From NCBI GenBank assembly GCA_031274765.1, contig JAISPR010000117.1:1-41752 (forward strand): a stretch of DNA of 41,752 bases, written 5' to 3'. This stretch comes from Nitrososphaerota archaeon. GTDB lineage: Archaea > Thermoproteota > Bathyarchaeia > Bathyarchaeales > Bathycorpusculaceae. A program made the position numbers and the translations under genes. How positions within the stretch are numbered: the first letter of the stretch is position 1; each line of letters starts with the position of its first letter. Positions 27,364 through 37,272 of the stretch are shown piece after piece. A model generated the notes under the pieces. That model was not told the DNA's origin. It made no database searches and saw only the letters and a program-made list of their open reading frames with translations.

Positions 27364-28407
27364 TTAAGACGGTGTTGAGGGTTTCTGTATTTGGGCAAGA
27401 TTAGAGCAAACAAGGTGGTCTCTATAAAGTTGACGTGCATTCCAAACCCCATCAACCAAAATTTTTGAGTCAAATAAAACAAAGCGGAATTCGTCTCCAA
27501 CCGCCTTAAAACTGGTTTGCGCCGCCAAATCTACAAGCTGGGTCTCAAAAATATCGAATTCTTTTTGTAAATCCACCTCACCAACGACTTTAGCAAACCA
27601 AAGATCGTTTAACACAAGATACGCCAAAACAATATTTCTAACCTGTCCAAAGTTTGGTGTTGCATCAGCCAAATCCTCCAAGGCCACAAAACTATCAAAG
27701 TAACCATAGATGGCCCCAAGAATAGCAAAGGCTTCCTGAGCAGTCATAGCAGCATTTTGATTTTGAATTGCAACAGAAACGGAGCTAAAATCTAAATCCA
27801 AAGGGGCCAGGGTTTGAGCCCTAAAATTAAAGGTACCACCCAAGGCCCGCACAAACCGTTCTAACTCCAACCAGTCCACATGTTTTCTGTGCAACCCCAT
27901 CAAGATATCAAACGCGCCATCTACAAGGGGCAAAGCGGCATTTAGAAAAACAAGCAACTCATCTCTGTGTAACGTAATATGCTGGAGTTTTTGTATATCT
28001 TTCCGGTGAGCTTCTTGTAATACTGCAATTTGTTTAACTAATTCAGTAAAAGATTGACCTTTAGGCTTTAGGATAAATTGATATTTTTTATCATTCCAAC
28101 ACAAACTAATCCAACTGTCAAGGCTTTCCACGCCGGTTAGCTCATAAATCGGAAACTCTTTAACCACAGTCCAGTGCTTTTTAAACAGCCCCGCAGAGGT
28201 ATAGAATTTTACTTTCTCATCCACAATCTCATATTTGACAATTGGAAATCCAATAAGTTTTGGGGGTTTGGACTTTGAGTTAGCTGCATCCTTAGTAGAT
28301 GGTTGATTAGATTTTTTGCGTCCAAATAGCAATATCGGCACAGCTATAGGAGATTTAATTGACATATATGAACAGCAGGGTAAGGAATTAGTTTTGCGAT
28401 TCATCAA
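27364..28407 (-). CDS. Hypothetical protein with possible PH-like N-terminal domain
   Basis: A 347-aa soluble protein. Residues 55-125 form a strand-rich block (VKYEIVDEKVKFYTSAGLFK, then WTVVKEFPIYELTGVESLDS and KYQFILKPKG) that resembles PH-like domains known from archaeal membrane-associated proteins. The rest, 130-340, is helical with a FVALEDLADATPNFGQVRNI segment. There is no signal peptide. The first 35 residues, with Ser/Lys/Pro, may be a linker, and a later ATG (15 codons in) is possible. An ACTATAATG TATA-like sequence lies about 25 bases upstream of the start, so the transcript may be leaderless. The family is not recognised with certainty. Confidence 0.65.
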   Translation of the reverse strand: MMNRKTNSLPCCSYMSIKSPIAVPILLFGRKKSNQPSTKDAANSKSKPPKLIGFPIVKYEIVDEKVKFYTSAGLFKKHWTVVKEFPIYELTGVESLDSWISLCWNDKKYQFILKPKGQSFTELVKQIAVLQEAHRKDIQKLQHITLHRDELLVFLNAALPLVDGAFDILMGLHRKHVDWLELERFVRALGGTFNFRAQTLAPLDLDFSSVSVAIQNQNAAMTAQEAFAILGAIYGYFDSFVALEDLADATPNFGQVRNIVLAYLVLNDLWFAKVVGEVDLQKEFDIFETQLVDLAAQTSFKAVGDEFRFVLFDSKILVDGVWNARQLYRDHLVCSNLAQIQKPSTPS

Positions 28408-29180: not shown

Positions 29181-29468
29181 TCACTTGGGATTCCAAACAC
29201 ACCAAACCGCCTTAGCCTCACAAGCCAAAACACATGGAGGCAAAAGGGTTTCAGGTTTACAAGAAAGACAAGTGTAATGTATTTTTTTACGATACTCCTC
29301 TTTAATTGCCGCCACAGTCATATCTTCTAAATCGATAAACTCTGTCACCAACGCGAAAGCATTTTGGGGACATTTTGCAACGCACCGCCCACAGCCCACA
29401 CATTTCTCAGAGTCCACAACGATAAAATATTCCCCTGAACCATCACAATACCCATAATAGGTGATTAT
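29181..29468 (-). CDS. Small ferredoxin-like 4Fe-4S protein with apparent AUA start
   Basis: The last gene of the operon. The frame contains ITYYGYCDGSGEYFIVVDSE upstream of the first standard start (GTG 29417), and this stretch reads as a normal part of the protein. There is no ATG, GTG or TTG for it. A perfect GAGGTG ribosome site at 29476-29481 lies seven bases before an ATA codon at 29468, so AUA initiation is the best reading, giving 95 aa. The first cluster motif is CVGCGRCVAKCP; a second Cys set, CLSC then CVLAC, could hold another cluster. The protein may carry electrons to or from the operon's ATPases and reductase. A minimal 78-aa form from GTG 29417 is the alternative. Confidence 0.8.
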   Translation of the reverse strand: MITYYGYCDGSGEYFIVVDSEKCVGCGRCVAKCPQNAFALVTEFIDLEDMTVAAIKEEYRKKIHYTCLSCKPETLLPPCVLACEAKAVWCVWNPK

Positions 29469-29479
29469 CGCAACGCACC

Positions 29480-30373
29480 TCAGATTTGTTGTGTCTTCTC
29501 ATAGAGGGCCTTAGCAAGCAAAGCCGCACCAAAAGCACCCGCCACCATAGGATCCAACCCGCCATCACGCCAATTTGGCGTCGGCAAACACTTAACACCT
29601 AAAAGGGTCTCAATACGACTCACAATCCCCACATTCTTAGACTGTCCCCCAGTAATAACTAATGCCGGCTCCAAACCAACCCGATTTATAAGGTTAGCCA
29701 TCCGCACTGCCATCGCCCGTGTGTAAGCCGCCAAAACCTTCTCCTTTGACCAACCCTTACGCAACAACCCAATAGCCTCAGTTTTTGCAAATGCCACACA
29801 AGTACAACTCACAGGCTCAGGTTCAGCCTCAACCTTAAGAGACATAGCACCAATCTCTTCAATGGGAACCTGCAACAAATCCGCAAAAACCTCCATCCCC
29901 CGACCAGTGCCAGCAGCACATTTATCATTCATAAGAAAGCTAACAACCCGACCAGTTGCATCAATCTTTATAGCCTTAATGTCTTGCCCCCCAACATCTA
30001 ACACTGTTCGAACACTAGAACCCCAAATATAATTAGCCCCCCTGGCATGACAGGCAATCTCTGTAATGGCTTTGTTAGCCATTGGAACATTAACTCGACC
30101 ATACCCGGTTCCCACAATATATCGCAGATCACGTGTACTCAACGCGGTGTCTTTTAGAGCCAAATCCAAGGCTTTTTTAGCACTCTCAGGACTATTACTA
30201 CCGGTCCGAGTAATACCCCAACTATAGGCTTGTCCATTAACCATCACCGCCGCTTTAGATCCCACCGAACCAACATCAACCCCTGCAGTGATAATATCAT
30301 CCGAAACAGGTGCAATATTTGGCATTGTGTGACGGTATTCATGCCAACGCCAAAACTCTTTAGCCGTACTCAT
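29480..30373 (-). CDS. BcrA/HgdC-like ATPase (ASKHA activator subunit)
   Basis: A 297-aa member of the BadF/BadG/BcrA/BcrD ATPase family, which uses ATP hydrolysis to raise the energy of an electron passed from its 4Fe-4S cluster. The phosphate loop is GVDVGSVGSK at about 31-40. The cluster cysteines are in NDKCAAGTGRG (C152) and SCTCVAFAKTEA (C190/C192). The adenosine motif is ITGGQSKNVG. It overlaps the end of the preceding ATPase gene by four bases (ATGA). The first 25 residues precede the ATPase fold, and the ATG at codon 17 is a possible later start. It probably pairs with the 30370-31155 protein as a heterodimer. Confidence 0.9.
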   Translation of the reverse strand: MSTAKEFWRWHEYRHTMPNIAPVSDDIITAGVDVGSVGSKAAVMVNGQAYSWGITRTGSNSPESAKKALDLALKDTALSTRDLRYIVGTGYGRVNVPMANKAITEIACHARGANYIWGSSVRTVLDVGGQDIKAIKIDATGRVVSFLMNDKCAAGTGRGMEVFADLLQVPIEEIGAMSLKVEAEPEPVSCTCVAFAKTEAIGLLRKGWSKEKVLAAYTRAMAVRMANLINRVGLEPALVITGGQSKNVGIVSRIETLLGVKCLPTPNWRDGGLDPMVAGAFGAALLAKALYEKTQQI

Positions 30374-31155
30374 TTAGCTGCCCCCTTGGCACGCATTGCA
30401 GCAGTTAACGCGGCGCCCAAAGCACCTGCATAATCAGGATACGGGGGAATTTGAACCTGCAAACCTAGTTTGCGGTTAAGGGAAGCTACAAACCCAGGGT
30501 CTTTGGCAACCCCGCCGACCAAAACCACTTCAGGGTTTACACCCAACCGATGCACCATAGAACAAACGCGATCAGCCATAGCATCAAAGACGGCACGTGC
30601 GATTTCGGGTTTGGATTCTTGACGGTGGATAAGAGAGACCACATCGGATTCGCCAAATATGACACATGAAGCGTTAATGGAGCTTGCGCGCTCTGCCTGT
30701 AGAGAGAGAGGTCCCATGTCTTCTAATTTCATCTCTAAGGCTCGGGCCATGGCTTCTATGAATGCTCCTGCGCCTGCGGCACAGCGTTCGTTGACAACAA
30801 ATTCCATCATTAAACCGCGTTCGTCACATTTGACGGCGCGAGCTTCTTCGGCGCCAATATCGATGATTGTGCGGGCTTGGGGGATGAGAAATACGCCTGC
30901 TTTTGCATCTGCGCCCATCATGCTTATAGTGCTATTGGCGTGGGGCGCTAGATCCATAGCAGCGCCGGTGGCAGTGATATGGTTTATGTCTGGGAGGGTT
31001 AGACCCGCAGTGTTTAGGGCATCATTGACTGTTTGTTTAGCTGCTTTTGCGGGGTCAAAGCCTGCAAACGCTTGGGCTTTGCTAGCGATTGTGCCGTCTT
31101 TTAGAACCAGGGTTTTTATTCTTTGGGTTCCAAGATCTATACCAAGGGTAATCAC
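30370..31155 (-). CDS. BcrD-like ATPase (ASKHA activator subunit)
   Basis: Second ATPase of the operon, about 261 aa. The GTG at 31155 (VITLGIDLGTQRIK) lies nine bases after a GAGGTG site; an earlier GTG at 31167 overlaps that site and is less likely. The phosphate loop is GIDLGTQRIK. The cluster cysteines, numbered from the earlier GTG, are in NERCAAGAGAF (C129) and NASCVIFGESDV (C168). The GGVAKDPGFV motif corresponds to the adenosine site. It resembles subunit D (or BzdQ) of ATP-dependent benzoyl-CoA reductase. Two non-identical ATPases, as in the Bcr system, differ from the homodimeric HgdC of 2-hydroxyacyl-CoA dehydratases. Confidence 0.9.
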   Translation of the reverse strand: MITLGIDLGTQRIKTLVLKDGTIASKAQAFAGFDPAKAAKQTVNDALNTAGLTLPDINHITATGAAMDLAPHANSTISMMGADAKAGVFLIPQARTIIDIGAEEARAVKCDERGLMMEFVVNERCAAGAGAFIEAMARALEMKLEDMGPLSLQAERASSINASCVIFGESDVVSLIHRQESKPEIARAVFDAMADRVCSMVHRLGVNPEVVLVGGVAKDPGFVASLNRKLGLQVQIPPYPDYAGALGAALTAAMRAKGAAK

Positions 31156-31169
31156 TGTTTTGGTCACCT

Positions 31170-32504
31170 CTAAAAATCGATGCGTGCATTTAGGAGTTCC
31201 ATAAAAGCTTCTACACGAGTTTTGAGTTGTCCAACGTCTTCGCGAGTGTATTCGGTATCAAGATAGTATACGGGTACATTGATTTTGTCTAGGGCTTTTT
31301 TGACGCGGTTGTATTCCATTGCGTAGAGCATGCATCCGCGCAGTACATAGTAGATAACCCCTTGGATGTTCCATTCTTTGACTTTGTTTAGTAGCCAGTT
31401 AATGCGGTCTTCGTTGCCGTCTTTGCTGGTAAAGCAGGGGCAGGTAGAGGCCATGAGGTAGCGTTCGCTTATGGCGTTTAACATGTCATCCATTGACCAT
31501 TCATCTACGCCTATGGGGTCGTTTAGGATGCGTTCTCCGCTGCATTGTTCGTCTGCGACGATAATACCTTTTGGGTTACCTTCTTCGACAAGAGCGGGGA
31601 GTTTCCAGCTATCGGGCCAAAACATGGGTGTGCCTGTGAGCATGACTCTTGGCGTATCGGGGCTGCAGACCCAATCTTTTTGTTGGACCCGTTTTTCGAG
31701 TTCATTGCAGAGGGCTTCGGTTTTTTCGGTCCAACGTTTTTTATCATCCCAGCTGTAGGCTTGGTTGACAAGCATGGCGTCTTGGCCCATGATAACAGGG
31801 TTGCCTTTGCGTAGCTCTTGTAGCCGGCGAAAAGCTTTGGTTGCACGGTGACTAGTGGTGATGGCTTCTTTTAGGCTGTTGCGGGTTATTTTGTTGCCGG
31901 TAAAGGTTTCGATTTGGGTTTTCATATGTTTGATTTCGGCGCTCCAAAATCGTAGACTTTGCGTTGAGTCTTTTACGCGTGGGACATTCATACCCCAGAT
32001 GGTTTTTTGGTCACTTAAAATTTCGCTAAGCTTAGTCATACCGTCGCAGGTTAGAACGCTTATCAGTGCATCACTTTGTTCTAAGAAGGGAGAGAGTTCT
32101 ATCATTTTAGCGCCTATCGTTGAGCGGATAACGGGGCAAACTTCTACTGGAACCACTCGGTCACCGAGTTTAGAGGTATCATACCAGCCAGAATTAACAC
32201 GAACCGGAATGGCGTCAGCAGCAGAAATCAACTCAGTAGGTGCAAAAAGACAGAGATATCCGATGATTTTTTTGCCTTTTTGTTTTTCTGCTTCGATTTC
32301 TTGTTGACGTCGCCCAAAGAGATTGGCGATGTCATCAAAGTATTTCATGGTATCGGGACGGTGGGAGTCGGCTTTTTTCATGCGTGCAATGTTGTCAGCA
32401 ATTATTTTTTGTGACGCTCCTTTCACGGTGGTTTTTAATTCATCGATTTCTTTTCTTTGGATTTCAGGCAGATATCTTTGTTCAACAGTTTGATTTTTAC
32501 TCAA
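31170..32504 (-). CDS. HgdB/BcrC-like iron-sulfur reductase (2-hydroxyacyl-CoA dehydratase superfamily, possibly double-cubane type)
   Basis: A 444-aa protein and the only HgdB/BcrB/BcrC-type subunit in the operon. Family blocks are IGYLCLFAPTELISAADAIP with C85, LTCDGMTKL with C153 and YYVLRGCMLYAMEYNR with C391, the three positions that normally hold a 4Fe-4S cluster. Further cysteines at C123 (EVCPVIRS), C321 (DEQCSGER) and C355/C357 (STCPCF) are more than a single cluster needs and recall double-cubane cluster proteins. It starts at TTG 32504 with a strong GAGGAG site and overlaps the upstream gene by eight bases. A single subunit suggests a homodimer. The substrate is unknown: acyl-CoA, an aromatic or a small molecule are possible. 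Confidence 0.85.
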   Translation of the reverse strand: MSKNQTVEQRYLPEIQRKEIDELKTTVKGASQKIIADNIARMKKADSHRPDTMKYFDDIANLFGRRQQEIEAEKQKGKKIIGYLCLFAPTELISAADAIPVRVNSGWYDTSKLGDRVVPVEVCPVIRSTIGAKMIELSPFLEQSDALISVLTCDGMTKLSEILSDQKTIWGMNVPRVKDSTQSLRFWSAEIKHMKTQIETFTGNKITRNSLKEAITTSHRATKAFRRLQELRKGNPVIMGQDAMLVNQAYSWDDKKRWTEKTEALCNELEKRVQQKDWVCSPDTPRVMLTGTPMFWPDSWKLPALVEEGNPKGIIVADEQCSGERILNDPIGVDEWSMDDMLNAISERYLMASTCPCFTSKDGNEDRINWLLNKVKEWNIQGVIYYVLRGCMLYAMEYNRVKKALDKINVPVYYLDTEYTREDVGQLKTRVEAFMELLNARIDF

Positions 32505-33501
32505 TTTTTCTCTCCTCGTTTATGATTGAGGGTTCCAGCCAGTTTCGGGATTTAAACACCGGCTTGTTACCCAGATTTATTTTAAGAGTGTCCTCATAGG
32601 GACACAACTCTACGCATCTTGCGCAAAGCATACATTGGGACGTTTTGATTTTTCCGCCCTTTTGGTCATAGACATCGTTGACTTGTACAGGACAAACGCG
32701 TTTGCATACACCGCATTTGGTACATTTTGCCTCGTCTTTCTCTATGTAGAGTAGGGGTACCCCTTTAAATGCCTTAAATTTGTTAAGGGCCGCTATGGAA
32801 ACACCGGCGGGACAAAAACGACACCAAATTCGTCGAACCAGAAATGCACCAATTAGGGTAGTGGCCACAAATGCAATAGCAAAGATTTGTCCAGGGGTTG
32901 CTTGGATTAATGAGGTGATGTTAGCTACGTAGGGGTAACTAAAGTTGATGTTTCCCAGGATTAGCTGACCGGTCCAGGGTACAACAAAGGGTACAAGGGG
33001 GTCGATTATGAGGCTGTAGGGCCGAAAGGGTCCTGCGAGTAGTCGAGCCATCATAATTGCGGTGGCGGTGTCAGGGGGGGGATTAAAAATCCACAAGATG
33101 AGGGGAAAGAGCAGAAATACGGTTATAATTAGGTATCTGCCTTTGTGGAGAGCGAGGTTTAATTTGTCGGGGAGAAGGCGATAGCGGATTTTGAGGGCTT
33201 TTCTTAGCAAATTTTCTATATCCATAATGAAGGCAAAAGGACATACCCAGCCGCAAAAAAATCTACCCAGAAAAAGCGTCACTGCAAACCAGGCAATGAG
33301 CACATAGAGTAGGGGTATAGCGGGTTCAAGGGAGAATAGGAAAAAGAAGGCGGCTAAGCCGACAGCTTGAATAACAAATCTTAAAAAAGTTACTCGGGAG
33401 GCACGATTTTTCTTCCAAACCAAAACAGCTATCACACCTGCAATCCCAAGTCCCACTAGCATAATGAGGCTAAGTATGTTTCCGATTAGTTCGCCAGCCA
33501 T
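32497..33501 (-). CDS. NapH/NosR-type membrane polyferredoxin
   Basis: About 334 aa from ATG 33501 (MAGELIGNILSL), 14 bases after the stop of the CcdA-like gene; an in-frame earlier start would overlap that gene and add no membrane segment. Five or six transmembrane helices carry the cysteine motifs FCGWVCPFAFIMD and WCRFCPAG, the paired C-x3-CP signature of the NapH/NosR/RdxA group. The cytoplasmic C-terminus has two 4Fe-4S motifs, CTKCGVCKRVCP and CMLCARCVELCP. Relatives move electrons between the membrane quinone or thiol pool and soluble Fe-S proteins. Here it probably supplies the downstream ATPases and reductase. Confidence 0.88.
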   Translation of the reverse strand: MAGELIGNILSLIMLVGLGIAGVIAVLVWKKNRASRVTFLRFVIQAVGLAAFFFLFSLEPAIPLLYVLIAWFAVTLFLGRFFCGWVCPFAFIMDIENLLRKALKIRYRLLPDKLNLALHKGRYLIITVFLLFPLILWIFNPPPDTATAIMMARLLAGPFRPYSLIIDPLVPFVVPWTGQLILGNINFSYPYVANITSLIQATPGQIFAIAFVATTLIGAFLVRRIWCRFCPAGVSIAALNKFKAFKGVPLLYIEKDEAKCTKCGVCKRVCPVQVNDVYDQKGGKIKTSQCMLCARCVELCPYEDTLKINLGNKPVFKSRNWLEPSIINEERKIE

Positions 33502-33515
33502 ATCAAATCGCTCTT

Positions 33516-34220
33516 TTAGGTTATTTGAATTATTGAGTTGAACAGGGTAAATATACCCAGTATAATCAGAGCAGCAGCTCCGGCAATTGAGATCCATTTT
33601 TGGAGTAGGGGAGCTTTGCTAAGCAGCCAGCCGGTAACGCCGGCTAAGAGTAGCAGGGGCGAAATTGCAGTCCCTATACCAAAAAGAATAGCTATACTAA
33701 CGCTGCCAAGGGGTGATGCAAAAGGCAGGGCGTAGACCAGAAGTGCCATTAGAGGGGGGCAGAGAATTAAGCCGCGCGTCAATCCCAGGGTGAAAGCCCC
33801 AAAGTCTACACTAAATTTACCTCTTTTTTTAGCCTCAGCTAATTTTTTTGCATCTTGGCCGTCGCATTCGCATGAAGGGCGTTTGGTTTTGAACAAAACC
33901 ATCACACCGATAAGTATGGTAACGGCGCCAAAGATAAGTGAGGAGTATATTTGAAACGGTGATAGGGCAGTTTCAGTGACAAAAACTCTCAAAAGACCCC
34001 CAAATAAACCTACAGCGGCCCCAATTAGTGCATAGGCAAATATGCGTCCAGAATTAAAGAGCAGGGTTATCTTGATACTGTCCCGAAATCCTGAACCGAC
34101 GCCTGCAATATAGCCTGCAACAAAGGGTAAACAAGAAGCAGTACAGACCGCTAAGCCATAGACTAAACCACCGGTAAATGCACCCATATACGGATTTGAG
34201 ATATCAGGCATCAGCGACAT
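33516..34220 (-). CDS. CcdA/DsbD-like (SafE family) membrane thiol or electron carrier
   Basis: First gene of the six-gene operon, 234 aa with about six transmembrane helices in two similar halves. The first helix has VCTASCLPFVAGYI and the fourth has LILCPPLMALL; paired membrane Cys-Pro motifs in these positions are typical of CcdA/DsbD-type proteins, which carry reducing equivalents across the membrane by thiol exchange. A cytosolic loop holds CECD, a possible extra metal or thiol site. The ATG at 34220 follows a G-rich GGGGGA site; an ATG three codons on is also possible. Its position before a membrane polyferredoxin suggests it feeds or senses the redox state of that chain. Confidence 0.82.
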   Translation of the reverse strand: MSLMPDISNPYMGAFTGGLVYGLAVCTASCLPFVAGYIAGVGSGFRDSIKITLLFNSGRIFAYALIGAAVGLFGGLLRVFVTETALSPFQIYSSLIFGAVTILIGVMVLFKTKRPSCECDGQDAKKLAEAKKRGKFSVDFGAFTLGLTRGLILCPPLMALLVYALPFASPLGSVSIAILFGIGTAISPLLLLAGVTGWLLSKAPLLQKWISIAGAAALIILGIFTLFNSIIQIT

Positions 34221-35829: not shown

Positions 35830-37272
35830 TTATTTTGCGGTTCCTTTTTTTCGAAGGTACAAAATTACAGCAACAAATCCAAGACATAACAGTATAACTA
35901 GAAAAACCACAACTTCGATGGGGACTGTAAAGGGGTCAGAAGTAGACGACGTAGGAGTTGGAGTAGGTGTGATAACAGGGGCGATAGTTGGAGGGAAACT
36001 TGAAGGAGAAGGAGAAGGAGAAGGAGTGGGCGTAGAGACAGCGTCTTTGGTGAAACCGATGTCATAGTTATTATAGCCATAAGTCAGGGGAGATGTCCAG
36101 ATAATGTTAGCGGCTATGCGGGCACGATATATTTCATCATAGGTGGAATCTTGGTCATATATTGTAGCGGCACGATTATTTGAAAACTCTACGCCGGTTG
36201 CAACAGAGAGTTTTTGGAGGTTTTCAACAAAAATACCCCCGCCGTTTTTTAATGCGGTGTTACTTGAAATTTTACCGCCCCGAAGCTCAAATGAGCCTGC
36301 ACCAACATATACACCTCCGCCATTGTCCTCAGCAGTGTTGCCAGAAATTGTGCCGCCAGCCATGCTAATTGGAGAGTCAGCAACTATGCCGCCGCCAGAG
36401 ACTGTGGCTTTATTGTTAGAAATTGTTGCCTTACCGGTGATGGTGAGACGGCCATAAAAATAGTTGTATATGCCGCCGCCTTTTTTAGCGGTGTTACCAG
36501 AGATTTCCCCTCCAGAAAAACTAAAATCACCATTGTTATATACGCCTCCGCCATTGTCAGCGGTGTTTTTTGAAATAACACCGCCAGTCATGCTAAAGAC
36601 GCCATAGTTACATATACCCCCGCCTTCAAAGTTGGCGGTGTTGCCAGAAATAACTCCACCTGAGAGGCTAAAATGGCCATCGCGGGTATTGTATACGGCT
36701 CCGCCAACAGATGTAGAGGCGGTGTTAGCAGATATTTCACCGCCAGCCATGGTAAAGGTGCCGTCGTTGTGTACACCGCCTGCAAGACCCGCAGTGTTTC
36801 CAGAGATTTTGCCTCGAGTCATAGTTAGGGTCCCGCCAGATTTGATATCTATACCCAAACCTTGGGCTTCTGCACTGTGGGTTACGATGATGCCTTCAAG
36901 ATTTAATGTGCCACCGTCGGCAATAGTTATGGTTGCTTTATTAGCGGGACCGATTAGTTTAGAGAAGGTTTCACCTTCGCTATTGCTCATTAGAGTGAGG
37001 GAGAGATCAACAGATATATTGAGCGTCTCTGTGAGGGGGATGTCGTTATCTATGGCGATTATTATTGGTTCTTCTGAGGGGGCGTCAGCTATTGCGGTTC
37101 TAAGTTCAGTTTCTGTTTTAACGTGTACCGCATCGGTTAAAGAGGCGGCTTCAACGGTTACTGATGGGGGGTAAACAAATAAAGTAAAACTTAGCAGTAG
37201 GATCAGTAAAGTGGCAGGTAGAAGATTTTTGGGGTGAATATATCTTAGTTTAAAGGTGTGTGAAGCAGTCAT
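35830..37272 (-). CDS. Surface-anchored beta-helix protein with PMP-like repeats
   Basis: A 480-aa protein with a signal peptide (hydrophobic core at about 17-33, VEAAS cleavage-like site). Residues 75-140 form the helix cap. About ten imperfect repeats of 22-25 residues follow at 140-370, with the pattern GG-x-I-SGNTA and GGG(I/V)YN, as in right-handed beta-helix and chlamydial polymorphic membrane proteins. Then comes a Pro/Ser/Thr-rich stalk (about 410-445, probably glycosylated), one transmembrane helix (about 450-472) and a basic tail RKKGTAK. This is the usual layout of an archaeal surface protein exposed through an S-layer. Adhesion or glycan binding is inferred. Confidence 0.85.
   Translation of the reverse strand: MTASHTFKLRYIHPKNLLPATLLILLLSFTLFVYPPSVTVEAASLTDAVHVKTETELRTAIADAPSEEPIIIAIDNDIPLTETLNISVDLSLTLMSNSEGETFSKLIGPANKATITIADGGTLNLEGIIVTHSAEAQGLGIDIKSGGTLTMTRGKISGNTAGLAGGVHNDGTFTMAGGEISANTASTSVGGAVYNTRDGHFSLSGGVISGNTANFEGGGICNYGVFSMTGGVISKNTADNGGGVYNNGDFSFSGGEISGNTAKKGGGIYNYFYGRLTITGKATISNNKATVSGGGIVADSPISMAGGTISGNTAEDNGGGVYVGAGSFELRGGKISSNTALKNGGGIFVENLQKLSVATGVEFSNNRAATIYDQDSTYDEIYRARIAANIIWTSPLTYGYNNYDIGFTKDAVSTPTPSPSPSPSSFPPTIAPVITPTPTPTSSTSDPFTVPIEVVVFLVILLCLGFVAVILYLRKKGTAK

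Follow-up and report, generated by a model that had tools for sequence, protein, structure and literature searches.

The window analyzed here is a complete contig of 41,752 nucleotides (JAISPR010000117.1 of assembly GCA_031274765.1; contig C3 of the host genome) from a bathyarchaeon, and its subject of interest is a six-gene operon at positions 29,181 to 34,220 that joins two membrane redox proteins to a homologue of the double-cubane-cluster protein DCCP, two ATPases and a ferredoxin. The host is a gut archaeon with a genome of 2.5 Mb that is 95.6% complete. Among the best 80 of 227 relatives, the closest named one is Ca. Bathycorpusculum termitum, with a reductase that is 93% identical. An earlier note on this DNA had described six co-directional, tightly spaced genes. 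All six open reading frames (ORFs) were confirmed on the minus strand in the same places, and with corrected starts the gaps from gene 1 to gene 6 are 14, -8, 2, -4 and 11 bases (overlaps negative).

The first operon gene (33516..34220) encodes a CcdA-like membrane protein of the DsbD_2 family (PF13386, 90.8 bits, cut-off 24.9). It is followed by a NapH-type polyferredoxin (32497..33501; PF12801, PF13237), for which the listed ORF, reaching 33597, is too long, since orthologues begin at M33 (position 33501). The third gene (31170..32504; PF06050, 308.5 bits) encodes the DCCP homologue, an HGD-D protein predicted to be a reductase or electron-storage subunit. Two ATPases of the BcrAD_BadFG family come next, a BzdP-like activase (ATPase 1, 30370..31167; PF01869, 153.8 bits) and a BzdQ-like activase (ATPase 2, 29480..30373; TIGR03192, 344.9 bits, cut-off 380.2). 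The last gene encodes a dicluster 2x[4Fe-4S] ferredoxin (29181..29468; PF00037/PF13237), whose start was also corrected: the conserved N-terminal motif lies upstream of the called GTG (29417) and reaches 29468, where the codon is ATA. All six lie on the minus strand. The host genome was found to hold one HGD-D gene and two BcrAD ATPases, all inside the operon, which bears out the earlier claim of one reductase subunit with two non-identical ATPases.

The NapH-type protein has hydrophobic segments, CX3CP and CX2CP motifs and two C-terminal [4Fe-4S] motifs, and 12 of its cysteines are conserved in 40-41 of 41 aligned rows. Fer4_5 motifs, hydrophobic segments and a dicluster domain are common to it and the known transmembrane Fe-S proteins of the NapH/CcoG type. 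CcoG, according to passages of PMC7558416, has an Ig-like periplasmic domain. A difference from these proteins is the predicted partner, an ATP-driven DCCP. The window protein scores under the curated cut-offs for NapH of the NapGH quinol dehydrogenase (TIGR02163, 77 bits against 213; NF007013, 74 against 234). For the CcdA-like protein, the alignment of 44 rows showed C26 and C30 each in 41/41 and C154 in 42/43.

The reductase and its activation module

The reductase is very likely a relative of DCCP. Its PF06050 match spans most of the protein length, and the best named model is NF040772 (double-cubane-cluster-containing anaerobic reductase), with 338.7 bits, under the cut-off of 350. Orthologues in a 300-genome sample of the phylum scored 324-362 bits, with five reaching 350 or more, which means that the cut-off divides the orthologue group; two deeper bathyarchaeal proteins of the same clade scored 383.9 (genome G456) and 407.4 bits (G406). 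Among chains of solved structures, phmmer placed DCCP (PDB 6eno/7yyl) first with E ~1e-76 and BzdN second with 3e-23. A predicted model of the reductase (mean predicted local distance difference test score 75) gave 6eno and 7yzm/7yyl as top Foldseek matches, with template modeling (TM) scores of 0.80-0.86.

Six cysteines of the reductase (C85, C123, C153, C321, C355 and C391) align with both 6eno and BzdN. Among the orthologues of 54 bathyarchaeal loci, five of these cysteines are kept in 54/54 and C391 in 53/54. We infer from common alignment columns, not from coordinates, that the six would be the ligands of an [8Fe-9S] cluster. C266 and C357 are present in 6eno and in DCCP-B, the canonical bathyarchaeal paralogue, and absent from BzdN; Escherichia coli YjiM has C357 and lacks C266, and HadC lacks two of the six. 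Judged by sequence, the protein belongs to a subclade next to canonical DCCP rather than to the canonical group itself. The earlier note had named, as a point that would count against its reading, a firm place of the reductase in a characterized dehydratase subgroup with a missing partner subunit elsewhere in the genome. No second HGD-D gene, neither an HgdA-like partner nor one of the BzdO/BcrB type, was found in the 95.6% complete host genome, and for this reason the reductase is presumably a homodimer.

The solved DCCP comes from Carboxydothermus hydrogenoformans (PMC7306483), and its details were drawn from passages of PMC11971306 and PMC7306483 and from PDB entry titles. The DCCP:DCCP-R system of this organism (PDB 6eno, 7yyl, 7yzm) has the same reductase fold, the six cysteines, C266 and C357, and an ATPase of the BcrAD family. 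The window protein, in contrast, is only ~34% identical and falls just under the curated NF040772 cut-off. Whereas C. hydrogenoformans DCCP has one homodimeric activase (DCCP-R), the window operon has two non-identical Bzd-like ATPases plus a ferredoxin, and loci of the window type often add NapH, CcdA and a secreted protein. Passages of PMC11971306 report that characterized DCCP reduces acetylene, azide and hydrazine in vitro, state that its biological function is unknown, and mention the double cubane as a proposed electron transfer or storage cofactor in BzdN. The 2-hydroxyacyl-CoA dehydratases (HgdABC/HadBCI) have two HGD-D subunits and one homodimeric activator, an arrangement not seen in the window operon. 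The single subunit does resemble a known family, DCCP, which the earlier note did not consider.

The two ATPases do belong to the BcrAD family, as noted earlier for BcrA/BcrD-type proteins, but their nearest match is a bzd-type P-Q-ferredoxin module. Candidate cluster cysteines of ATPase 1 (C129 and C168) are both kept in 53/53 aligned rows, and ATPase 2 likewise retains its candidates. The two are the only BcrAD proteins found in the host genome. A bathyarchaeon of the window's family (G042) carries a bzd-type benzoyl-CoA reductase operon with N, O, P, Q and ferredoxin genes, in which N scored 438 of a cut-off of 453.8 bits, O 563.6 (over 448.6) and Q 367.5 of 380.2. Its 94-aa ferredoxin, placed after P-Q, is of the same type as the window ferredoxin and has the same N-terminal motif. 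ATPase 1 grouped with P of this operon at 100/100 support in both of two trees, and ATPase 2 with Q of G042 and of another genome (G072) at 100/100 and, in the second tree, 100/99; ORFs of less than 220 aa, including the truncated P of G072, were dropped from the trees, as were some near-identical rows from the second.

Because of this kinship, the window operon looks like a hybrid in which a DCCP reductase has been joined to a Bzd-type P-Q-ferredoxin activation module. Class I benzoyl-CoA reductase of the bzd type (BzdNOPQ with ferredoxin) has the same P-Q-ferredoxin trio in the same gene order. In contrast, no BzdO was found in the window genome, and DCCP occupies the place where BzdN would be. 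A crotonase-family gene and a 744-aa Fe-S/pyridine-nucleotide oxidoreductase adjoin the G042 operon (L239:1585-10612), the oxidoreductase following P-Q-ferredoxin.

Conservation in Bathyarchaeia and occurrence in bacteria

Genome contigs were scanned with specific seed peptides, and the best 80 of 227 relatives were kept. Identity exceeded 60% at 48 loci, which were archaeal without exception (with Bathyarchaeota, Bathycorpusculum, Bathyarchaeum, Crenarchaeota or Nitrososphaerota titles), and then fell to ~30%. In a class-wide search, 63 of 256 genomes matched at E 1e-60, some of them through DCCP-B or other HGD-D proteins; 53 belong to the window's family, eight to the family that includes Bathyarchaeum, and two lie elsewhere. 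From 92 loci with a window-type DCCP, 54 distinct bathyarchaeal loci were obtained, to which the following counts refer.

DCCP and ATPase 1 occur together at 53/54 loci and both ATPases at 52/54, a conservation far beyond chance. The ORF caller found the ferredoxin at 49/54 and CcdA at 44/54, one of the latter (L109) being a 41-aa remnant, and NapH is present at 41/54. All six genes stand together at only 28/54. The operon is conserved in relatives, with exceptions: twelve loci have CcdA and DCCP and no NapH, and nine have NapH and no CcdA. At least two of the loci without CcdA (L038, L133) are cut by a contig end.

The conserved N-terminal motif of the ferredoxin was located at 44 of the 54 loci and was absent from the search result at 10. 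Its first codon is ATG, GTG or TTG at 22 of these 44 and ATA, ATC, ATT, GTT or GTA at the other 22, and by eye an AGGTGA-like stretch often stands just before it. Near-cognate start codons or coupled translation are possible at these sites.

At 25/54 loci the operon is preceded by a seventh gene. Its product, a secreted CARDB protein, usually has 718-784 aa and carries a single membrane anchor at the N-terminus. In the window genome this protein is encoded on another contig (68% identical). The CARDB protein pairs with NapH: eleven of the 13 genomes without an operon NapH were examined, nine have a close NapH elsewhere, and in seven of these (G010, G021, G026, G027, G031, G048 and G092) it lies directly beside the CARDB protein, while in G001 and G008 it is on another contig. 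In a set of 100 related genomes, the window-type DCCP and the CARDB protein occur together in 41, this DCCP alone in three, the CARDB protein alone in two, and neither in 54. In a fold search against the PDB, the CARDB protein matched long and mostly beta-rich proteins only in part, at TM ~0.1, and consequently no function was read from it. The other commonest neighbors are a 185-aa protein (19/54 loci) and a 333-347-aa protein (10/54), neither with a useful family. None of the genes flanking the operon at the 54 loci was conspicuous as a conserved target enzyme.

NapH adjoins DCCP in eight further loci that lie beyond the main bathyarchaeal group; seven of these have one activase, and in the eighth none was seen. 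Two belong to deeper bathyarchaea. G406 has the order ATPase, CcdA, a 366-aa membrane-anchored protein with no Pfam match, NapH, DCCP, with one ATPase. G456 is the eighth, with NapH and DCCP on a short contig and no ATPase in the 2.9 kb downstream. A third lies on a plasmid of the bacterium Sulfurovum mangrovi (NZ_CP087125.1) and reads TonB receptor, CcdA, 722-aa Fer4_5 protein, NapH, DCCP, one activase, RND pump. The other five came from a sample of 395 genomes of the phylum of a Syntrophaceae genome (Thermodesulfobacteriota), of which 131 have a DCCP over the NF040772 cut-off. From this sample all five matches at 331-365 bits were fetched, together with 15 chosen among those at 461-530 bits with a preference for long contigs. 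The five-locus set was thus picked by score band and not by gene context.

At each of the five loci of the 331-365-bit band, NapH immediately precedes DCCP and one activase immediately follows it (in L293 the contig ends at that point). Each also has, upstream of NapH, a gene for a protein of 343-346 aa in which one or two hydrophobic segments are predicted, and CcdA is present in two. In contrast, at the 16 canonical loci (those 15 and G507) no NapH was seen on the DCCP strand in the stretch examined; L298, one of them, gave a weak match to NapH on the other strand. In the tree, the NapH-linked DCCPs and the bathyarchaeal orthologues form one clade (100/99), and 18 canonical DCCPs form a separate clade with 6eno (100/98); a YjiM group of four, including three of the 16, falls outside. 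The six bacterial loci thus share with the window a DCCP of its clade, an adjacent NapH, a membrane-anchored partner upstream of NapH and, in 3/6, CcdA. Unlike the window operon, they have a single activase, its ferredoxin was not found in them, and TonB receptors lie near 5/6.

This clade spreads beyond the main bathyarchaeal group, and therefore the membrane link seems to be older than the swap of the ATPases and no oddity of one window. An invention confined to Bathyarchaea was ruled out by the members of the same clade on a bacterial plasmid and in the bacterial sample. Bathyarchaeal and bacterial NapH proteins formed separate groups in their own tree, with the G406 NapH on a long branch among the bacterial ones; this tree had no outside NapH rows and hence says nothing about co-inheritance with DCCP.

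As a lead, the bacterial neighbors suggest that a scarce solute is taken up, perhaps an oxyanion or a metal complex. Pfam identified TonB receptors in L253, L290, L291, L292 and L294 and TonB itself in L290. Genes resembling those of a WtpB/WtpC tungstate ABC transporter, below curated cut-offs, lie upstream of the NapH-DCCP-activase set in L293 (169-1988). DUF4198 was over its cut-off in one protein of L292 and weak elsewhere. Passages of PMC8238504 note TonB receptors beside another family of extracytosolic reductases, thought to release siderophore iron.

Direction of electron flow and alternative explanations

The sequences support an ATP-driven reductase of the HgdB/Bcr superfamily with membrane redox partners at this locus, as proposed earlier. 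Our best explanation, to which we assign as a whole a probability of about 40%, takes the operon for a variant of the DCCP system that is coupled to the membrane, with electrons going outward through NapH. The small ferredoxin would reduce the [4Fe-4S] cluster of the P/Q ATPase pair, and ATP hydrolysis would drive single-electron transfers to the [8Fe-9S] double cubane of DCCP, a cluster that may hold the electrons at very low potential in the way suggested for BzdN. From DCCP the electrons would go to NapH and, by way of this protein, through the membrane to an acceptor on the outside that the secreted partner holds; CcdA would help with thiols. The substrate could be an extracytoplasmic metal complex or oxyanion, which is a guess from the TonB receptors and tungstate-type ABC transporter near the bacterial loci. 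DCCP is probably functionally coupled to NapH; the outward direction, argued by analogy, is tentative and a little short of even odds.

We lean toward outward flow because of relatives of the two membrane proteins. CcdA and DsbD send electrons outward. NapH-like proteins have been proposed as transmembrane carriers to extracytosolic reductases or from oxidases in passages of PMC8238504. CcoG is described as a membrane Fe-S cupric reductase that serves copper delivery, but the CcoG passages of PMC7558416 are silent on the membrane side at which copper is reduced, which slightly weakens the case for the outward direction.

Several observations weigh against the proposed scheme. NapH is missing from 13/54 loci and CcdA from 10/54, one locus (L140) has neither, and another (L141/L247) has NapH, CcdA and a shortened DCCP, yet no ATPases. 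No close NapH was found anywhere in G002 and G020, which are 87-88% complete. The co-occurrence of DCCP with the CARDB protein is strong by Fisher's test (p 5e-22; 6e-7 by genus outside the window's genus), but these values ignore phylogeny. The CARDB protein has one invariant cysteine and no recognizable redox cofactor site, and the bacterial partner proteins of NapH may be unrelated to it. The characterized MbdP and MbdQ, on long unresolved branches, did not group with the operon ATPases; they were the only characterized benzoyl-CoA reductase ATPases in the trees, which included no Azoarcus BzdP/BzdQ. The stoichiometry of a heterodimeric activase on a presumed homodimeric reductase, the electron flow and the cluster type are all predicted. 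As to direction, NapH-like carriers running from oxidases are also proposed (PMC8238504), and cytosolic chaperones are named among the receivers of Cu(I) from CcoG (PMC7558416).

The strongest alternative, though we consider it unlikely, is that DCCP itself reduces a small molecule in the cytosol, with the secreted protein, CcdA and NapH importing or pre-reducing the substrate. This would agree with the in vitro activities of characterized DCCP (PMC11971306) and with the TonB receptors, TonB, RND pump and tungstate-type ABC transporter near the bacterial loci. However, the canonical DCCP loci examined manage without NapH. To our knowledge, NapH is also not a transporter family.

Even less likely is the inward route, in which NapH and CcdA would pull electrons from the membrane or from outside thiols into the ferredoxin, and P/Q and DCCP would boost them with ATP for a cytosolic reduction. 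Thiol or quinol potentials make poor ferredoxin donors, and the outward direction of CcdA/DsbD also counts against such a route. The ferredoxin is kept where the locus lacks NapH, and the losses of CcdA and NapH counted above mean that neither is indispensable there. On the other hand, in G042 the P-Q-ferredoxin genes are followed by the 744-aa oxidoreductase, a donor that NapH could replace, and passages of PMC8238504 allow NapH-like carriers to run from oxidases. With such carriers proposed there for both directions, the earlier view that electrons are drawn inward from outside thiols is not supported.

We regard as improbable a role in maturation, in which NapH, CcdA and the secreted protein would perform envelope or cofactor assembly and DCCP would provide low-potential electrons or cluster chemistry. 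CcoG does serve copper delivery (PMC7558416), and DCCP-B sits with SelD, DsrE and TusA genes, but the 54 loci revealed no obvious conserved target enzyme next to the operon. Finally, the operon could encode a benzoyl-CoA reductase that lacks one subunit (BcrACD without BcrB), the annotation given for Bathyarchaeum tardum (PMC10477458). This reading would fit the Bzd-like ATPases and is nevertheless very improbable, since the window genome yielded no BzdO/BcrB-type subunit, the reductase clusters with DCCP and not with BzdN, benzoate inhibited growth of B. tardum according to the same source, and a bzd-type operon exists in a relative (G042). A degenerate benzoyl-CoA reductase was likewise rejected, because no gene for BzdO turned up in the genome and the DCCP clade includes the reductase.

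Returning to outward flow through NapH, its widest form is about as doubtful as the cytosolic alternative. It would define a cross-domain class of ATP-driven transmembrane reductases. Cytosolic ATP hydrolysis would let an activase bring a double-cubane protein to potentials beneath the usual redox window, and NapH would export the electrons to an extracytoplasmic substrate that is out of reach for ordinary membrane carriers, e.g., an oxyanion or a metal held in a tight chelate. Bathyarchaeia would have swapped the single activase for an ATPase pair of the benzoyl-CoA reductase type plus ferredoxin.

Earlier annotations and neighboring genes

The "BcrACD without BcrB" cluster reported for B. 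tardum (PMC10477458) is very probably this operon, because in the genome taken as B. tardum (G071) the only BcrAD ATPases are the operon pair. Benzoyl-CoA reductase annotations in Bathyarchaeia have been cited as a sign of aromatic degradation in passages of PMC12694404. Such annotations can be this DCCP operon, which calls for caution with claims of aromatic degradation. No literature linking DCCP or the double cubane to NapH, CcdA or a polyferredoxin was found in a search that left many subscription papers and all bioRxiv preprints outside; nap genes and DCCP are given as separate loci in passages of PMC7306483. The operon is real, conserved and wider than first claimed, and what appears new, from the sequences compared, is a kind of DCCP with a borrowed activation module and membrane partners. 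A DCCP subclade with recurrent membrane partners in archaea and bacteria offers concrete partners for the function of DCCP, and the link to NapH provides a way to ask if ATP-boosted electrons serve a membrane or extracytoplasmic reaction.

Other HGD-D genes showed neighborhoods of their own. DCCP-B (L077-L087, L236 and L237) has a SelD-type gene beside it at 10/13 loci and DsrE at 9/13, with TusA in L236. In G310 and G321 it comes with an activase of its own. Of the 11 other DCCP-B genomes, 10 were found to have no BcrAD ATPases but the operon pair, and in the eleventh (G003) a third one adjoins another HGD-D gene. A further link between CcdA and HGD-D, outside the DCCP clade, was seen in G392 (L248:7473-10846), where a CcdA-like gene immediately adjoins two HGD-D genes and a gene for a 153-aa protein that has an Ig-like match below threshold.

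In the window genome, a prismane/hybrid-cluster-type protein (PF03063, 528.5 bits; L235:2712-4328 on G000:C98) is encoded ~6 kb from the CARDB gene. Within the window, positions 27364-28407 encode a 347-aa protein without a Pfam match, of a family found downstream of the operon in 10/54 loci, the window included. At 35830-37272 lies a gene for a repetitive, secreted-looking protein in which a Pro/Thr/Ser-rich stretch and a C-terminal hydrophobic segment were recognized by eye.

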